The notes under the pieces are model-generated. The model did no database searches and had not been told where the DNA came from. It was given only the letters and a program-made list of their open reading frames with translations. A stretch of DNA of 64,000 nucleotides from Blastocatellia bacterium (GTDB lineage Bacteria; Acidobacteriota; Blastocatellia; Pyrinomonadales; Pyrinomonadaceae), in contig PMSM01000014.1 in assembly GCA_003168335.1 (NCBI GenBank), forward strand, positions 310,001 to 374,000, given 5' to 3'. The translations under genes and the position numbers were made by a program. Of this stretch, positions 17,854 to 26,990 are shown piece by piece (within the stretch, counting starts at the first letter, position 1; each line of letters starts with the position of its first letter).

Positions 17854-18504
17854 TCAAACCTGCATACTTTTTTCTTTGTCCTCTCGCAAGTGCTTGATGT
17901 GGCGCCAAACCCACCAGGCAACCGCTAATGCCAGGATGATTCCAATGATGAAATCGAATCTATGAAATAGTGTCTTAAGCGTTGGATCTTTGTCCCACTT
18001 CTCACCGAGTCGCTGTCCTACGTACGCCAAACCAATGCACCAGGGCAGCGAGCCGGCAAAAGTGTAGATCACGAATTTTTTCAAGTTCATTCGGGCTACG
18101 CCCGCCGGGAACGCAATGAACGTGCGAATCGCCGGCAACAAGCGGCTCGCGAATACAATCACCTCGCCGAAACGAGCAAACCATCGATCAGCCAGGTCAA
18201 GATCGTGATGTGAAATCAGCAGGTAACGGCCATACTTCTCAACTAACGGTCTGCCACCATACATCCCCACCCAATATGCCACGAGCGATCCAAGCACACA
18301 GCCAAACGCACCCGCCACCCCCACCAACCAGAGATTGAATTCCCCCTTGGAAACCAGATAACCCGAGAAGGGCATGATTATTTCCGAGGGGAGCGGAATG
18401 CAGGCGGACTCAATGGCCATTAGCAGGACAACTCCCGCATAGCCAAGCCGGGAAATCGTGGCCACGATTAAGACTGAAAGCAGCTCGATGATTTTGCCAA
18501 TCAT
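17854..18504 (-). CDS. DedA-family membrane protein
   Basis: A 216-residue polytopic membrane protein of the classical DedA type. Recognisable segments are E-S-A-C-I-P-L-P-S-E-I-I-M-P-F-S-G-Y (about residues 32-49) and G-S-L-V-A-Y-W-V-G-x-Y-G-G-R. The strongly conserved FASRLLPAIRTFIAFPAGVA is also present. DedA proteins move undecaprenyl phosphate or phospholipids across the membrane and affect proton-motive force. It ends a minus-strand run surE-pcm-dedA with a short gap before pcm, which suggests cotranscription. Confidence 0.88.
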   Translation of the reverse strand: MIGKIIELLSVLIVATISRLGYAGVVLLMAIESACIPLPSEIIMPFSGYLVSKGEFNLWLVGVAGAFGCVLGSLVAYWVGMYGGRPLVEKYGRYLLISHHDLDLADRWFARFGEVIVFASRLLPAIRTFIAFPAGVARMNLKKFVIYTFAGSLPWCIGLAYVGQRLGEKWDKDPTLKTLFHRFDFIIGIILALAVAWWVWRHIKHLREDKEKSMQV

Positions 18505-18526: not shown

Positions 18527-19210
18527 CTAATTTAGGGCCCATCCGTGCTGGCCAATCAGTGGTACAAACTGACAAGGCCCGTGCTCTTCGACCTGATGCC
18601 CACCCTCAGTCTTGTTCACGCGGATTAATTTCTGCGACTCGCGCGTCTCTCCGACTGGAATAACCAAGCGTCCGCCGATCTTCAATTGCGCGACAAGCGG
18701 ATCCGGGATTCGCGGCCCACCGGCCGCGACCAGAATTCCATCATACGGTCCGTAGGCATTCCAGCCCAGAGTACCGTCAAACGCCTTGACCGTCGCATTG
18801 TAGATTCCCAGTTCGCAAATCCTGGCCTGCGCCTGGCGCGCTAGTTCACCGATGCGCTCAATCGAGTAAATCTGCGCCGCAAGTTGCGCCAGCACGGCCG
18901 TTTGATAGCCTGAGCCAGCGCCGATTTCCAGCACTCGACTCTTCTTATCCAGCTCAAGCAGCTCAGTCATTCGCGCTACGATGAACGGTTGTGAGATCGT
19001 CTGATTGAAATCGATCGGCAGCGCGTGATCGTCGTAGGCACGTCCGCGGAGCGCCTCAGGAACAAAGAAATGCCGCGGGACGCAGCGCATGGCTGCCAGG
19101 ACACTTTCATCGCGAATGCCGTAATGATCGCGCAGGCGTTCGACCATGCGCTCGCGAGGGATGCCATACTCGGCCTGCAGTGCGTGTTGCCGTGATTGTG
19201 TGGAACTCAA
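18527..19210 (-). CDS. pcm: Protein-L-isoaspartate O-methyltransferase
   Basis: Repairs isoaspartyl damage in aged proteins by SAM-dependent methylation. The 227-residue protein has PIDFNQTISQPFIVARM, the SAM-binding VLEIGAGSGYQTAVLA and a conserved VAAGGPRIPDPLVAQLK segment. The first start, a TTG at 19210, gives an N-terminus like those of other members. The ATG at 19147 is an alternative. It follows surE closely, the standard stationary-phase repair pair. Confidence 0.94.
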   Translation of the reverse strand: MSSTQSRQHALQAEYGIPRERMVERLRDHYGIRDESVLAAMRCVPRHFFVPEALRGRAYDDHALPIDFNQTISQPFIVARMTELLELDKKSRVLEIGAGSGYQTAVLAQLAAQIYSIERIGELARQAQARICELGIYNATVKAFDGTLGWNAYGPYDGILVAAGGPRIPDPLVAQLKIGGRLVIPVGETRESQKLIRVNKTEGGHQVEEHGPCQFVPLIGQHGWALN

Positions 19211-19243: not shown

Positions 19244-20011
19244 CTAAGTATGCAAGAGTTCAGAAGACGCCAAACAATTCCAGGAGCCTATTTCTGTTAG
19301 TGCCCGGTGATCAGTCATGTCGCTTCTCAACGGAGTGACCGATACAAAGCCGTCTTCTATTGCTCGATAGTCGGTGCCCTCTTCCGCATTCAAGCGGAAA
19401 TATTGTTCTCCGATCCAAAAATACGGTTTACCGCGAGGATCTATATGCTCTGTAATCACGGGCCTGGCATTCTTGATCCCCTGGCGAGTCACTTTCACGC
19501 CTTTGATCTCACCCAGCGGGACGTTCATGTTCAAGAGTGTTCCCTCAGGCAGGCCTTCACTAAGTATCTTTCGCACAGCGAGCACCGCGAATCGAGCAGC
19601 GTCGGTAAAGTCAAGGTTCTCTCTTGCTACCAGGCTGACTGCAATTCCCTTCACTCCCAGGATCGTCGCTTCCAAAGCACCCGCCACCGTGCCCGAATAC
19701 GTCGCGTCGTCTCCAAGATTCCCGCCGTGGTTAATCCCTGACACGCAAACATCCGGTAGTTCATCGTCCTTGAGAATTTTGTGCAGCGCCAGCGTCACAC
19801 AATCCGTGGGCGTCCCGTCGACAGTCCAATGCCGATCATCGATCTGCCGAATGCGAAGAGGCCGAGCGAGTGTTAAGCTGTGCGAAGCACCGCTCATCTC
19901 AGCCGCCGGCGCGACGACAAACACATCCCCGACCTCGTGTAAAGCTCTTTCAAGCTTCAACAGCCCGTCGGAGTGAATTCCGTCGTCGTTGGTCAATAAG
20001 ATGCGCGTCAT
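19244..20011 (-). CDS. surE: 5'/3'-nucleotidase SurE
   Basis: Metal-dependent survival-protein nucleotidase. It begins MTRILLTNDDGIHSDG with the metal-binding Asp9 and Asp10. It has SGASHSLTL, the V-S-G-I-N-H-G-G-N-L-G-D-D-A-T-Y-S-G-T-V signature and a typical 255-residue length. The ATG at 20011 is clear. It stands between rpsU and pcm on the minus strand. Confidence 0.96.
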   Translation of the reverse strand: MTRILLTNDDGIHSDGLLKLERALHEVGDVFVVAPAAEMSGASHSLTLARPLRIRQIDDRHWTVDGTPTDCVTLALHKILKDDELPDVCVSGINHGGNLGDDATYSGTVAGALEATILGVKGIAVSLVARENLDFTDAARFAVLAVRKILSEGLPEGTLLNMNVPLGEIKGVKVTRQGIKNARPVITEHIDPRGKPYFWIGEQYFRLNAEEGTDYRAIEDGFVSVTPLRSDMTDHRALTEIGSWNCLASSELLHT

Positions 20012-20361: not shown

Positions 20362-20449
20362 CTATTTCTCCGATTGATCAGTCTTTGATTCTTTCCCGCT
20401 TTTCGAACTCTATTTAACACGTCTTCCTGCATCATGGTCAAGCAGACAA

Positions 20450-20490
20450 CGAAAACCCCGCGAACGGTCAGAAACGTTAGCGGGGCACTC
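20450..20490 (-). terminator. Terminator after the radical SAM gene
   Basis: On the minus strand, CCCCGC (20485-20480) pairs with GCGGGG (20461-20456), strengthened by AACG/CGTT, and is followed by TTTTCGTTGT. It lies just beyond the stop at 20510. Confidence 0.75.
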
Positions 20491-20509
20491 GTCAAAAGCT
20501 AGCCGATGA

Positions 20510-22546
20510 CTAAGCTGAGACAACAGCTAAATCCTTCTTCCGGCTCAAGCCTTGGATCTGCACTGGCTTGTCACCGTTGTCTGACTTGATATCTTGCTGT
20601 TTAAGTACCATTTCCTGATAGAGCTTACGCATCATCACGGTTTCTTCATGCGCAGTCTTGGGACCTTCCATATGCGGCTTGTTCGGCCGCATCAGATCCA
20701 CTTCGTTCAGCTTAAGGCCGTGAGTAGGATCCGCCAGATCGACAGTCTTGCCGCCCGCGAAGATCTCGTGCCGTCCATGTTCTTCATACCACTTAGCGAC
20801 GGTCGCGTTTTGGTGCATGTGCTCGATAATGTTGCGCCAACCAATACCGGTGTTATAGGCGCAGAAGCTAATCTCGCCTTCCTGCGTTCCGTAAGGAATA
20901 ATGCACATCTCTGTGCGGCGGAAATCATAGTTGAATAGATCCTGGAACCACATGCCCGCGATGAACAGAAAGTTCCACCGATCGGACCGCCGTTTTTGGA
21001 TGTCGTCCTTGCTACGGTCACCGCTCACCTTGCCATAGTCCTTCCCGGTCAACCCAAAGGACTTGTCAAACTTCTTGAAAAGCTCATAAAGATTGAATTG
21101 GGACGGCGCGTTCTTCGGGTTGTAATGCTTTAGAAGTGCGAGCCCCATCATTATGTTGGAGGCCCATTTCCCCCGCGCGGCATCCGTTATCTTCCGCATA
21201 TCCTTAACAAGTCCAGGGATATTAAGGAATGCCGGGACAGGACTCATTTCTTTCGTCTCTTTGTCGATCATAACCGCCGTGCCGACGCCACAGTTCGGGT
21301 GGCAACCACAGGATACTTGGCCCCATTCCGAGTTTGGTCCGTGAACGAGGTCGGCAAAATCTGCGAAGGCCCCCATTAGCGAAAGCGGAAACCAGTCTCG
21401 GGTTGGTTCCGTAATTCCAACCTGGTTCTTGACGTCGTGCGCCAGATGGGAAAGCGTGTATCGCTGCTGCAAGCGCCGCTCGGCAGTAATAGCCTCGTCA
21501 CGACCGGTAAAAGAAACCGGCTGGAAGGAAAGAAACGCAATCTTCTTTGGGTTATCCAATGCAAAGCGGATGATCGATCCAACCTGATCATTATTGATGC
21601 CGTTTACCAGCGTCGTGACCAGAACAATCTCTACCCCAGCCTCGTGGAGATTATTAATCGCCCGCAGCTTCACATCGAACAGATTGCCTACCTGGCGGTG
21701 GCTATTAGCGTCGTTGCCAACACCGTCAAATTGGAAATATACATAACGCAATCCCGCCTCTGCCGCTTGACGGCAAAACTCCTTGCTCTTTGCGAACTCA
21801 ATACCGTTAGTGGCTGCCTGGACCGAGTTATACCCAACCTTGCGAGAGTACTTAATCGCCTCAATGAAGTGCGGTGAAATCGTTGGTTCACCACCTGAAA
21901 ACTGCACCGACATTTGCCGACGTGGCTTGATCGAGATTGCGTTGTCGAGGATCTCCTGGATATCCTCCATGCTCAACTCATGGACGAACCCCACCTGGTT
22001 AGCATCCATGAAACACGGATCGCACATCATGTTACAGCGGTTCGTAAGATCCACTGTCAACACAGCTCCCCGGCCGTACTTGATCGTACTCGTCCCGTGA
22101 TTGTGTAGCTTCTCGTCGTTATGCGCAGGAATGTCACGACCAGGAAACATCGCTTCGATGTGGGTCAGGAACTTCGAGTCGATGGCCATCATGTCCTCGA
22201 AATGACCGTGAATCGGGCAGTCCTTCACCATCCAGATCTCGCCGTCACGCTCAATGATTTGCGCCTTAATCTCTCCAACCTTTTCGTCCAACAGAACCGC
22301 AACATCCTGCTTGCCGCTAAGAATCTCCTCCCGCGCCTCAATGACGCAGTTGGGACAAAGAGAGTCAGTAACGCGAGGCCAGCCCAGCGTTGGTTTTGTC
22401 TTCTGCCATGATTTCAACAGGGGCTTGTCGGACCACTTAGGCGTAAACGATGGATTTGGCTTGTACTTGTTAACTACTTGAATTGTATTGAAGAGCCCGC
22501 CAGCCACCGCGGCTACGGCCCGTTCTGAATACCTTATAACTTTCAT
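20510..22546 (-). CDS. COG1964 radical SAM protein, tetraether/membrane-spanning lipid synthase (Tes/MSS)-like
   Basis: A 678-residue radical SAM enzyme. The N-terminal zinc/rubredoxin-like part has CPNC (64-67) and DCPIHGHFED. The radical SAM cluster is C-N-M-M-C-D-P-C (Cys171, 175, 178), followed by VQFSGGEPT and QAATNGIEF. The C-terminal part has C-G-C-H-P-N-C and W-F-Q-D-L-F-N-Y-D, then C-I-I-P-Y-G-T-Q-E-G and FCAYNTGIGWRNI. This order is what I recall for COG1964 proteins such as archaeal MJ0619 (Tes), which couples lipid tails through a radical at methyl carbons. Acidobacteria make iso-diabolic acid by tail-to-tail coupling of iso fatty acids, so that role is an inference here. ATG at 22546, with a GTG 36 bases upstream as alternative. 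Confidence 0.8.
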   Translation of the reverse strand: MKVIRYSERAVAAVAGGLFNTIQVVNKYKPNPSFTPKWSDKPLLKSWQKTKPTLGWPRVTDSLCPNCVIEAREEILSGKQDVAVLLDEKVGEIKAQIIERDGEIWMVKDCPIHGHFEDMMAIDSKFLTHIEAMFPGRDIPAHNDEKLHNHGTSTIKYGRGAVLTVDLTNRCNMMCDPCFMDANQVGFVHELSMEDIQEILDNAISIKPRRQMSVQFSGGEPTISPHFIEAIKYSRKVGYNSVQAATNGIEFAKSKEFCRQAAEAGLRYVYFQFDGVGNDANSHRQVGNLFDVKLRAINNLHEAGVEIVLVTTLVNGINNDQVGSIIRFALDNPKKIAFLSFQPVSFTGRDEAITAERRLQQRYTLSHLAHDVKNQVGITEPTRDWFPLSLMGAFADFADLVHGPNSEWGQVSCGCHPNCGVGTAVMIDKETKEMSPVPAFLNIPGLVKDMRKITDAARGKWASNIMMGLALLKHYNPKNAPSQFNLYELFKKFDKSFGLTGKDYGKVSGDRSKDDIQKRRSDRWNFLFIAGMWFQDLFNYDFRRTEMCIIPYGTQEGEISFCAYNTGIGWRNIIEHMHQNATVAKWYEEHGRHEIFAGGKTVDLADPTHGLKLNEVDLMRPNKPHMEGPKTAHEETVMMRKLYQEMVLKQQDIKSDNGDKPVQIQGLSRKKDLAVVSA

Positions 22547-23418: not shown

Positions 23419-23859
23419 TTGAACAGGGTAGGAGATACTTACTGGCTTAGAAATCGGCACGTCACACAACAAGTTGCCGCGCAAGCGCTTCCGGTACGCG
23501 AACTGTCTCGCGAATGGCTCCCGGCAGCGGTTGATTGGTTATGGCTGCTTCCGTCGTGGATTTTTTTGGCAATGATACTTATCGCCACCCTCGGAATCTG
23601 CTCGACCGTGATAATGCGGTCAAGAGCTGAGCTAAAGGCTTCGTCCCTCGAGTATGGTCGGATGACCTCCGAAATCGATTCCATGCGCCGCTCAAATGCT
23701 TCCCTGCAGGTGGAAACACGTCTCATGGCGAGTGATCCAGGCACGATCGAATCCGCCGCGCGCGAAAGATTGGGGATGGTAAGACCGAACGACATCGTGG
23801 TTCCCATTGAATCGATTGGTCCAGTTTCAAGTTTTGGAACGTTATCGTTTGTCCGCTAA
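23419..23859 (+). CDS. FtsL/FtsB (septum formation initiator)-like membrane protein
   Basis: A 146-residue bitopic protein: a 47-residue N-terminal part, one hydrophobic helix (about residues 48-68), then a coiled-coil helix (RAELKASSLEYGRM...SEIDSMRRSNASLQVE). It ends with D-P-G-T-I-E-S-A-A-R-E-R-L-G-M-V-R-P-N-D. The last pattern is characteristic of divisome FtsL/DivIC proteins. The start is a TTG at 23419, set by a strong GAGGAGGT 5 bases upstream. No division gene is adjacent, so the role rests on architecture alone. Confidence 0.65.
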   Translation: MNRVGDTYWLRNRHVTQQVAAQALPVRELSREWLPAAVDWLWLLPSWIFLAMILIATLGICSTVIMRSRAELKASSLEYGRMTSEIDSMRRSNASLQVETRLMASDPGTIESAARERLGMVRPNDIVVPIESIGPVSSFGTLSFVR

Positions 23860-23955: not shown

Positions 23956-24089
23956 TCTAGACCAAAGTCTGGGCCGACCTCGCGGCACTGCCTACTCCGC
24001 TTGGATTGACACACCCAAAACCATCAACTAGTATCCAAGGAATCAAGGATTTTGACAGTAACGGCCCCTGTCGCCAACAAGTCTGGACG

Positions 24090-25769
24090 ATGCAAGAGAT
24101 CAAAGAAGCTTCTTCTGAAGACCAAGCCAAAGAACGCTGGGAAGAAGAGGTTTTGAAGCCTTCTCTGATGCGTCAAGGTGAGCGTAAGCTCAGCTTCAAA
24201 ACTGTTTCTCTCGACGAAGTCAACCGACTCTACACCCCATCGGACACTGCCAACATCGACTTTGATCGCGACCTTGCGTTTCCGGGGCAGTTTCCATACA
24301 CGAGAGGTATTCATGCCACTGGCCACCGCGGCAAACTTTGGACAATGCGTCAATTTGCCGGTTTTGGCACACCCGAAGAGACCAACGCGAGATTTAAGTA
24401 CCTTTTAAGAGAAGGGCAAACTGGTCTCTCGGTAGCCTATGACCTTCCGGCGCTGATGGGCTACGACGCCGATTCCCCACTCTCGGAAGGTGAGGTCGGA
24501 AAGTGCGGGGTGGCTGTTTCTTCTCTCGCTGACATGGAAGCCCTGTTTGACGGAATTCCCCTCGAAGGCGTTACCGTTTCTCAGACGATTAATGCGCCAG
24601 CCTCGGTCTTCCTCGCCATGTATCTGGTAGTTGCCCAGAAGCAAGGGGCAGACTGGAAAAAGATCTCCGGCACGCTACAAAACGACATTCTTAAGGAGTA
24701 CATAGCGCAGAAGGAGTGGATTTATCCGATTCGCTCCGCGATGAAGCTGGTCATCGATACATTTGAGTTTTGCACGAACCATGTCCCTCGTTACAACCCG
24801 ATTTCCGTAAGCGGCTATCATATTCGCGAAGCTGGCGCCACGGCGCTACAGGAACTTGCCTTTACCTTGCGCGACGGGATCGAATACGTGGAATGGGGCG
24901 TTCGCGCGGGTCTTGATATTGAGCAATTTGTGCCGCGCGTTTCTTTCTTCTTTAACGCTCACAATGACTTTTTTGAAGAAATCGCCAAGTATCGAGCGGC
25001 GCGGCGCATGTGGGCGCGAGCGATGCGCGATCGCTTTGGTGCTCGGTACGAGCGGACGATGCAAATGCGTTTTCACACTCAGACCGCCGGCGTGTCGTTG
25101 ACGGTGCAGCAACCGCTGAACAACATCGTGCGCGTGGCGATTCAGGCACTAGCTGGCGTGCTGGGCGGAACCCAATCCCTGCACACTGATGCGTTCGACG
25201 AAGCGCTGGCATTGCCGACCGACAAAGCTGCGTTGATCGCTCTACGAACTCAGCAAATTATTGCCGAAGAAACCGGCGTCGCCAACACTGTCGATCCATT
25301 GGGTGGCTCTTACTTCGTGGAGGCGTTAACAAACAAGCTGGAAGAGGGCGCGTTGGATTACTTCGATCGGATCGATAAGATGGGCGGCATGGTTGAAGCC
25401 GTCGAAAAGGGTTTCCCGCAACGCGAGATTCAAGAATCGGCTTATCAGTTCCAGAAAGCCCTGGAACGTGGCGATCAAACTATCGTCGGCGTGAACAAGT
25501 ACGAAATGAAAGACCAGCCCCAGGAAGTCCCGACTCTGGTCATCGATGAGTCAGTGCGCCAGCGCCAACTCGAGCGGCTCGAACGAACACGCACCAAGAG
25601 AGACAAGGGTGCGGTTGAGAAGGGACTTGATTCCCTGAGAATGGCCGCGCAACGCGGCGATAACACCATGCCGGCGACCATTGAAGCCGTCCGCGCTTAC
25701 GCCACGCTCGGCGAGATCTGTTCAGCTCTTCGGGACGTTTATGGAATTTACGAAGAGCCCGCCATCTAG
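24090..25769 (+). CDS. icmA: B12-dependent acyl-CoA mutase large subunit, isobutyryl-CoA mutase type
   Basis: TIM-barrel substrate domain of a coenzyme-B12 mutase, 559 residues, without its own cobalamin domain. Methylmalonyl-CoA mutases hold the substrate carboxylate with a Tyr in RQYAGF and an Arg ten residues after the Gln of T-I-Q-N-D-I-L. Here these are Phe89 (WTMRQFAGF) and Gln207 ([16 protein letters not shown]), the pair known from isobutyryl-CoA mutase. Interconversion of isobutyryl-CoA and butyryl-CoA is therefore more likely than the methylmalonyl reaction. [11 protein letters not shown] and [11 protein letters not shown] are standard. The ATG at 24090 is preferred; a TTG at 24006 is possible. 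The cobalamin subunit lies two genes downstream. Confidence 0.85.
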
Positions 25770-25793
25770 CTCGAAAGGAATTCCCCAAGTCAG

Positions 25794-26570
25794 ATGAAAC
25801 ACGTTCGCCTGTCTTCACTACTCCTCGCCTTACCTCTCACTCTGTGCGCGATCGTCGCCCAGGCTCCAAGCGTCGCGGCGCAGGATCGGGTCACCGTTCA
25901 ACCCAGGAGGGTCGTCCTACTTCGCAGCAGTAAAGTTGCGCGCGATTTTCCTGAACGCAAGACGGCAATCGTCAGATACCCGATCGTTCTGGGCTTAGCT
26001 GACGCAACCGTTCTGCGCAGGATCCAGAACACCCTAGCGATAAAGACTGTCTTCGACTCTACGTTAGAAGAATACCGGCAAGATTCCTGGTTGACCGAGT
26101 TCGACTATAAGGTCAACTACAATGAGAACTATCTTTTCGACATTACGTTTCAGCAGAGCGGAGTGGGCGCTTATCCAGACACCCAAACGAAGCACTTTCT
26201 AATTAACCTGAGAACCGGATTGGTCATCAAAGCTGTAGACAGTTTCAATCCAGACTCGCTGGCGACTCTGGCTCAAATGGCAAATCGAAAGTTGAAGGTC
26301 GAAACCAGAGAACGCATCAAAGAGCTCGCAGCCGATAAAGACACCGACGCGGATCAGAAAGGCTCTCTTAAGGATCAATTGGAACAACTGACGTTCACAG
26401 TCGAAAACCTCGACGAGCTCCAAGTTAGCGACAAAGGCGTGACGTTCTTGTATGACGCAGGATTTCCGCATGTAATTCAGGCTCTCCAGCCTGACGGCCG
26501 CTATGTTTTCAGCTACGCTGAACTGCGTCCCTACACAAAACGCAACGGGCCGCTCGGCATCTTCAAGTAG
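25794..26570 (+). CDS. Exported protein with a DUF3298/RsiV-like domain
   Basis: A 258-residue protein with a signal peptide (about residues 1-29, ending VAAQD). The central part has YNENYLFDITFQQSGVGAYP, HFLINLRTGLVIKAVDSFN and, at the end, VTFLYDAGFPHVIQALQPDG. The pattern of a beta sheet followed by an output-like Tyr/Asp/Phe region resembles DUF3298 proteins. No membrane anchor or sigma-binding region is visible, so an anti-sigma role is not supported. It is placed between the two mutase subunits, 24 bases after one and 15 before the other, and is probably cotranscribed. Function unknown. Confidence 0.6.
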   Translation: MKHVRLSSLLLALPLTLCAIVAQAPSVAAQDRVTVQPRRVVLLRSSKVARDFPERKTAIVRYPIVLGLADATVLRRIQNTLAIKTVFDSTLEEYRQDSWLTEFDYKVNYNENYLFDITFQQSGVGAYPDTQTKHFLINLRTGLVIKAVDSFNPDSLATLAQMANRKLKVETRERIKELAADKDTDADQKGSLKDQLEQLTFTVENLDELQVSDKGVTFLYDAGFPHVIQALQPDGRYVFSYAELRPYTKRNGPLGIFK

Positions 26571-26585
26571 TAGGGAAAAGGACAA

Positions 26586-26990
26586 ATGAACGAAAGGAAG
26601 ATTCGTGTTCTGGTTGCGAAACCCGGCCTCGACGGTCACGACCGCGGTGCCAAGGTGATCGCGCGTGCTCTCCGAGACGCCGGCATGGAAGTCATCTACA
26701 CCGGCTTGCGTCAGACCCCGGAGATGATCGCCGCTGCGGCTTTGCAAGAGGACGTTGACGCAGTCGGAGTGTCGATCCTGAGCGGCGCCCACAACACGCT
26801 GTGTCCGCGTATCGTGTCGTTGTTGCGCGAACAAGGAATGACGGACACTTTGGTAATCCTGGGCGGGATCGTTCCCCAGGAAGACATCGCCAAACTTAAA
26901 GAGCTAGGCGTCGCCGAAATCTTTCTCCCCGGTACATCGACACAGGATATTGCGAAGTTCATTCGCGAGCATGTACACCCGCGAACGTAA
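26586..26990 (+). CDS. icmB: Cobalamin-binding subunit of the acyl-CoA mutase
   Basis: The 134-residue B12-binding domain that pairs with the large subunit encoded at 24090. It has the base-off/His-on motif [11 protein letters not shown] (D-x-H-x-x-G, His18 region). [15 protein letters not shown] and LGGIVPQED follow in the usual order. ATG at 26586 with AAAGGA upstream. Separate small subunits occur in both isobutyryl-CoA and archaeal-type methylmalonyl-CoA mutases, so the substrate must be read from the large subunit. Confidence 0.93.

Follow-up and report, generated by a model that had tools for sequence, protein, structure and literature searches.

Our analysis of a 64,000-nt stretch of a Blastocatellia bacterium genome (contig PMSM01000014.1, positions 310,001 to 374,000; hereafter the window) suggests that a Tes-like radical-SAM (S-adenosylmethionine) gene at 20510..22546 on the minus strand (678 aa; the span includes the stop codon) probably encodes an enzyme that joins two fatty-acid tails end to end into one membrane-spanning lipid, as judged from sequence comparison and a structural model. 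We also lean, with rather less confidence, towards a broader view, in which the gene represents a separate subfamily of the tetraether lipid synthase Tes that lacks the N-terminal cluster, is ancient, occurs in nearly all Terriglobia and Blastocatellia and often in the class of Luteitalea, and would be the long-sought iso-diabolic acid synthase of Acidobacteriota, active in aerobes although it has one auxiliary [4Fe-4S] cluster less than the archaeal enzyme.

By sequence and predicted fold, the window protein is clearly related over its full length to archaeal Tes/GDGT-MAS (GDGT, glycerol dialkyl glycerol tetraether). Its best NCBIfam model is that of Tes (NF045702; 322 bits, 5.3e-96), its best sequence match in the PDB is GDGT-MAS, MJ0619 (7tol, 1.8e-61), and two Pfam profiles match as well: Radical_SAM (5.5e-21, above its cut-off) and the HMPTM N-terminal zinc ribbon PF23545 (47.9 bits, 9.7e-13, exceeding the gathering score of 27). 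Considering these profile matches together with at least 583 related loci, a chance origin of the motifs can be excluded. All of the motifs were found in the order claimed by the original prediction: an N-terminal Cys-x-x-Cys (C64-x2-C67, with C110-x2-H113), the C-x3-C-x2-C radical-SAM site (CNMMCDPC, 171–178), SGGEPT (217–222), FQDxFNYD (FQDLFNYD, 534–541) and FCAYN (561–565). An AlphaFold model built from 59 orthologs (mean pLDDT, the per-residue confidence, 73; pTM, the predicted template modelling score, 0.81; confidence low in the cofactor loops 141–188 and 535–586) has 7tom as its top structural match (Foldseek 7.6e-23; Z 22.8, 408 residues, root-mean-square deviation 3.2), the next fold being MoaA, which matches through the radical-SAM core alone (Z 15.7, 241 residues).

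Comparison of 87 window-type sequences with 30 canonical Tes sequences showed that nearly all active-site residues are kept and the ligands of the N-terminal cluster are gone, suggesting that the catalytic outfit is intact and a surface cluster has been lost. The radical-SAM cluster motif CNMMCDPC with the adjoining F179 (22010..22036; minus strand, like all features of this gene) is invariant (87/87), as are the SAM-loop residues Q342, S345, T347 and R349 (21500..21523; Q268, S271, T273 and R275 of GDGT-MAS) and, among further residues that bind SAM in 7tol/7tom, Y270, D274, V310 and T312; the GGE-type SAM-binding motif SGGEPT lies at 21881..21898. The stretch of the C-terminal auxiliary cluster that spans FQDLFNYD and FCAYN (20861..20953) holds M532, C548, Y552 and C562, again invariant in 87/87. 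M532 and Y552 are the equivalents of the labile Met439 and of Tyr459 of GDGT-MAS, residues with described roles in that enzyme and completely conserved in archaeal GDGT-MAS (PMC9433317). In Tes, this C-terminal cluster is the one next to the lipid pocket. The remaining ligand, C419, is accompanied at 21290..21310 by two more invariant cysteines: in the segment SCGCHPNCG (aa 413–419), C413 and C415 lie beyond the three mapped C-cluster ligands, and this arrangement might reflect altered ligation of the C-terminal cluster or a substitute for a lost ligand.

The N-terminal part differs more. A rubredoxin-like metal site formed by C64, C67, C110 and H113 (22208..22357; C9, C12, C33 and H36 of GDGT-MAS, PMC9433317) is retained, its Cys and His being present in 85–87 of the 87 sequences; the predicted N-terminal zinc part thus holds as far as the motif and the PF23545 match go, but in the solved relative GDGT-MAS the CxxC/CxxH site carries rubredoxin-like iron (PMC9433317). 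The segment of the N-terminal auxiliary [4Fe-4S] ligands of Tes (C73, C77, C80 and a His) maps to 22067..22135, where the window protein has a gap, H150, S153 and K156. None of the 87 window-type sequences has Cys at these ligand positions (K156 being the usual rather than the constant residue), as against 30/30 canonical Tes. With these ligands missing clade-wide, we expect two Fe-S sites in addition to the rubredoxin-like one, and not the three Fe-S sites originally predicted. In the solved Tes enzyme the N-terminal cluster lies at the surface and has no known role. A motif check on the sequences used for the tree gave the same division, with the N-cluster motif absent from all window-type and paralog sequences and present in the canonical ones (two canonical sequences were mis-parsed, the pattern having taken the N-cluster motif for the radical-SAM motif). 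A reading of the window protein as canonical Tes was therefore ruled out, and we do not file it as a Tes equivalog, since it scores below the curated 450-bit cut-off and lacks this one cluster site.

In a maximum-likelihood phylogeny of 91 proteins (run in quick mode, with SH-aLRT branch support only and several long branches), the window protein falls into a 43-member clade that has 100% support and is broadly split by class. Together with a paralog from the same genome (L082) and two similar proteins, this clade forms a group of 46 (100%) on a long stem beside canonical bacterial Tes, and the loss of the N-cluster maps to that stem. The claimed relation to Tes is thereby borne out by fold, active site and placement inside the Tes-like tree. 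The gene had also been called single; this fails, as the paralog at G000:C9:484801-486351 (L082:1300-3273, minus strand; 658 aa) is 49–52% identical to the window protein, likewise lacks the N-cluster and branches outside the window-type clade. This N-cluster-less paralog is patchy in the family, occurring in about half or more of its genomes. Of 396 Acidobacteriota genomes, 33 encode canonical Tes proteins above the equivalog cut-off (L085–L114), and one of these proteins (L086) scores 511 bits against MJ0619, so that some Acidobacteriota do appear to have true Tes-type enzymes. A separate third group in the tree, of 430–550-aa Tes/TrsS-like proteins (L150–L157, L161–L163, L165), leans to TrsS; two of its members are in Chloracidobacterium (G109) and one is in the Luteitalea genome.

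The distribution of the gene was counted in genomes more than 90% complete, with the window protein (P0001) as query at E ≤ 1e-150, a threshold that takes in the window type or the paralog. We take genome G368 to be Terriglobus saanensis, G225 T. albidus, G111 Luteitalea pratensis and G109 Chloracidobacterium thermophilum, and the class of G026 presumably includes Geothrix-like and Acanthopleuribacter-like members. The gene was found in 95/97 genomes of its own class, Blastocatellia, in 146/151 of the class of Terriglobus and in 83/119 of the class of Luteitalea, and in 0/63 of the Holophagae-like class of G026. Named records with the window-type gene include Bryobacteraceae, Sulfopaludibacter, Angelobacter, Acidobacteriaceae, Chloracidobacterium and Aridibacter. 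Most of the Luteitalea class has the gene and two of its families (f41 and f83) do not; we predict that iso-diabolic acid is absent from these two lineages.

These counts can be set beside published lipid profiles. Of seven subdivisions surveyed, those reported to contain iso-diabolic acid are 1, 3, 4 and 6 (PMC13274423); the remaining three would be 8, 10 and 23, going by the strain list in PMC5462960, and the lipid status of these negative subdivisions rests on the statement in PMC13274423. Luteitalea pratensis belongs to subdivision 6 (PMC5462960). In cultured strains of subdivisions 1 and 3 the acid makes up 20–40% of fatty acids, mostly without branched GDGTs (PMC13274423), Edaphobacter has 12–30% (PMC11354219), and Chloracidobacterium contains it too (PMC12816986). 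Pyrinomonas, where iso-branching glycerol ethers together with membrane-spanning iso-diabolic acids exceed 40% of the lipids (PMC4644332), represents a type of bacteria included in the family of the window gene. Because presence and absence by class match these reports, the gene appears to follow the lipid, and the comparison with published profiles, which had been named beforehand as a check, came out in favour of the prediction.

Both Terriglobus genomes (G368 and G225) have the window-type gene only, canonical Tes, the paralog and TrsS-like proteins being absent at E ≤ 1e-25. The full set of 21 radical-SAM proteins in G368 was compared with those of the window's genome (G000), G109, G111 and G026. 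An NCBIfam name or a clear closest family could be given to 14 of the 21, and the housekeeping proteins MoaA, MiaB, RimO, LipA, MqnC, MqnE, HemW, RlmN and QueE occur in all five genomes. The window-type protein has strong orthologs in G000 (66%), G109 (63%) and G111 (74%) and none in G026, a pattern that no other of the 21 shares: orphan1 is absent from G111, orphan3 is weak in G109, and those that are neither these nor housekeeping fail the pattern in at least two genomes. If a radical-SAM enzyme common to these subdivisions makes iso-diabolic acid, the window-type protein is therefore that enzyme; an iso-diabolic acid enzyme from outside the superfamily is possible. We also saw a radical-SAM family (L173 in G368, L083 in G000, L216 in G109) with 57–60% identity between subdivisions 1 and 4, absent from G111 and G026.

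By analogy with the solved relative GDGT-MAS, the [4Fe-4S] cluster at C171/C175/C178 would cleave SAM, and the 5'-deoxyadenosyl radical would abstract a hydrogen from a chain-end methyl. The carbon radical would then be held by the C-terminal [4Fe-4S] cluster (C419, C548, C562 and the labile M532), attached to one of its sulfurs, and a second SAM cleavage would give a second chain-end radical that couples to the held carbon. The chain ends fit such Tes-type coupling, because phytanyl and iso-C15 tails have the isopropyl end in common (PMC8941075), and two iso-C15 chains coupled methyl-to-methyl would yield 13,16-dimethyl octacosanedioic acid.

Several observations weigh against assigning the window protein this role. 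Its 322 bits stay below the Tes cut-off, the N-terminal cluster ligands are gone, and the SAM-site residues R210 and N108 are replaced in window-type sequences. Its neighbours in the window, named from sequence, include no lipid genes. Presence and absence at class level amount to few independent evolutionary events, the names given to the G-numbered genomes (Terriglobus, Luteitalea and others) are tentative, and the Terriglobus genome also has four radical-SAM orphans and two loosely assigned proteins. Moreover, Solibacter usitatus, with two Tes homologs, makes branched GDGTs and has undetectable iso-diabolic acid (PMC10087280). On balance, the predicted role in membrane-spanning lipid synthesis is supported by fold, active site and distribution, and two of the features predicted along with it, three Fe-S sites and a single gene, are not.

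The Solibacter profile would fit a lipid C–C coupling enzyme that mainly makes something other than iso-diabolic acid (acting, say, on ether lipids only, toward branched GDGTs, or forming another tail-to-tail link), with ester-bound iso-diabolic acid made by the paralog, canonical Tes or an Mss-type protein. We consider this unlikely, even though it is the strongest of the alternatives: the paralog and the scattered canonical Tes genes supply candidates for the second enzyme, and Tes and Mss are reported to be non-selective for ester or ether (PMC13274423), but Terriglobus has neither paralog nor canonical Tes at E ≤ 1e-25, and cultured strains of subdivisions 1 and 3 are nevertheless rich in iso-diabolic acid. 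Also against it, the PlsA/Ger-type ether genes (PF09989), looked for as a partner, were not found in G000, G368, G109 or G111, genomes of subdivisions 1, 4 and 6, so that ether bonds there must arise by a different route. A PlsA/Ger-type DUF2229 protein is encoded at G010:C1:514003-514695 (L166), in a genome without any Tes-like gene.

Less probable still is an unrelated radical-SAM reaction, such as the peptide maturation suggested for TrsS-like relatives or some other modification, with iso-diabolic acid made by another enzyme. The TrsS model (NF045646) does match the radical-SAM half of the protein, best over the first two thirds of the model, the loss of the N-cluster could mark functional divergence, and Terriglobus has its orphan radical-SAM proteins; but the TrsS score of 210 bits is far from the cut-off of 490 and lower than the Tes score, the C-cluster with its Met439 and Tyr459 equivalents is retained in 87/87, and no other Terriglobus radical-SAM protein has the right distribution. 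A degenerate Tes that has lost catalysis is very improbable, given that identity across subdivisions (66–74%) exceeds that of MoaA, MiaB and LipA between the same genomes and that all radical-SAM and C-cluster ligands are invariant.

For a tail-coupling enzyme, the gene neighbourhood gave little support. The predicted lack of a lipid gene neighbour was confirmed in the window, where the surrounding genes, named from their sequences, are those for a DedA-like protein (17854-18504), pcm (18527-19210) and surE (19244-20011), an rpsU-like gene just downstream, and genes for an FtsL-like protein (23419-23859) and methylmalonyl-CoA mutase (24006-25769); the large and small subunit genes of the mutase (24006-26990) are separated by an unrelated gene at 25794-26570. 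The flanks of 84 loci likewise contain surE, pcm, sugar-phosphate mutase, FtsL-like and QueG-like genes (named by eye) and no recurrent lipid gene, the exception being three subdivision-1-like genomes, where a canonical Tes gene and a window-type gene share a strand and are no more than about 6 kb apart. The gaps are about 190 bp between reading frames in G243 (L115, C7), about 3.4 kb in G107 (L116, C21) and about 5.6 kb in G065 (L117, C24). Since the neighbouring proteins are only about 33% identical, these pairs are not recent duplicates, and their proximity suggests a shared pathway, possibly at a shared lipid locus.

The reading frame starts with the ATG at 22546, and the same start codon is used in most of the closest orthologs. 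A probable intrinsic terminator lies at 20447..20494 on the minus strand (a -29 kcal/mol hairpin with a z of -3.95 and UUUU directly after it); the gene's own terminator, as predicted, is thus plausible, though the hairpin is not listed by a stock terminator scan, probably because that scan allows loops of 3–8 only. The first 27 residues (22466..22546), which lie within an N-terminal extension of some 55 aa ahead of the rubredoxin motif, are modelled as a helix (residues 2–26, pLDDT 80–93) for which membrane contact is possible; as an amphipathic anchor it was rejected, its hydrophobic moment of 0.41 not being significant against shuffles (p about 0.10).

In many soil Acidobacteria, 20–40% of the fatty acids are iso-diabolic acid, which is regarded as a precursor or analogue of branched GDGTs, the basis of palaeothermometers for soils and lakes. 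If our reading is correct, the window-type gene encodes the missing enzyme behind a widely used climate biomarker and, as one conserved gene whose distribution is clear, could serve as a genetic marker for producers and a knockout target in cultured strains. The clade would also be a natural experiment on which Fe-S clusters are dispensable to Tes chemistry.

Among known systems, the closest is Tes/GDGT-MAS (MJ0619; 7tol, 7tom; NF045702), with which the window protein shares the whole-length fold, the rubredoxin-like site, the radical-SAM core, the SAM-loop residues and the C-terminal cluster with the Met439/Tyr459 equivalents. It differs in sequence (31% identity), in lacking the N-terminal auxiliary [4Fe-4S] ligands, in the N-terminal extension and a C-terminal one of about 80 aa, in the extra invariant C413 and C415, and in its host, a bacterium with iso-fatty acids rather than an archaeon with archaeol. 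TrsS shares a related radical-SAM core. Mss is said, from work by Sahonero-Canavesi in 2022, to be the synthase of membrane-spanning lipids in Thermoanaerobacter/Thermotoga. In Thermotoga maritima, which makes diabolic acid, the Tes model finds a match at E ≤ 1e-10 and none at 1e-25, so Mss may belong to another radical-SAM family than the Tes-like one, and its inclusion in COG1964 by the original prediction gains no support. Mss resembles the proposed enzyme in radical-SAM coupling of fatty-acid tails, and a Tes architecture has been ascribed to it (PMC13274423), but in Thermotoga mostly omega-1 carbons are coupled (PMC8788747). Acidobacterial Tes homologs have themselves been known as proposed makers of these lipids since 2022: bacterial homologs were put forward for branched GDGTs, Edaphobacter aggregans being noted to have just one homolog, a weak one at 32% (Zeng 2022, PMC8941075), and one or both Solibacter homologs for membrane-spanning lipids (Halamka 2022, PMC10087280). 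Later work still calls their activity unconfirmed (PMC11868695), and we found no experimental test of them in the literature searched. The canonical acidobacterial proteins (L085–L114), probably the Koribacter/Solibacter homologs of Zeng 2022, belong to the same superfamily as the window protein (about 32–36% identity) and have the same C-terminal cluster, but, unlike the window protein, they retain the motif of the N-terminal cluster and for the most part exceed the Tes cut-off. What is new here is the N-cluster-less clade, set apart from canonical acidobacterial Tes, with a distribution that matches the lipid and as the sole such radical-SAM protein in the genomes compared.
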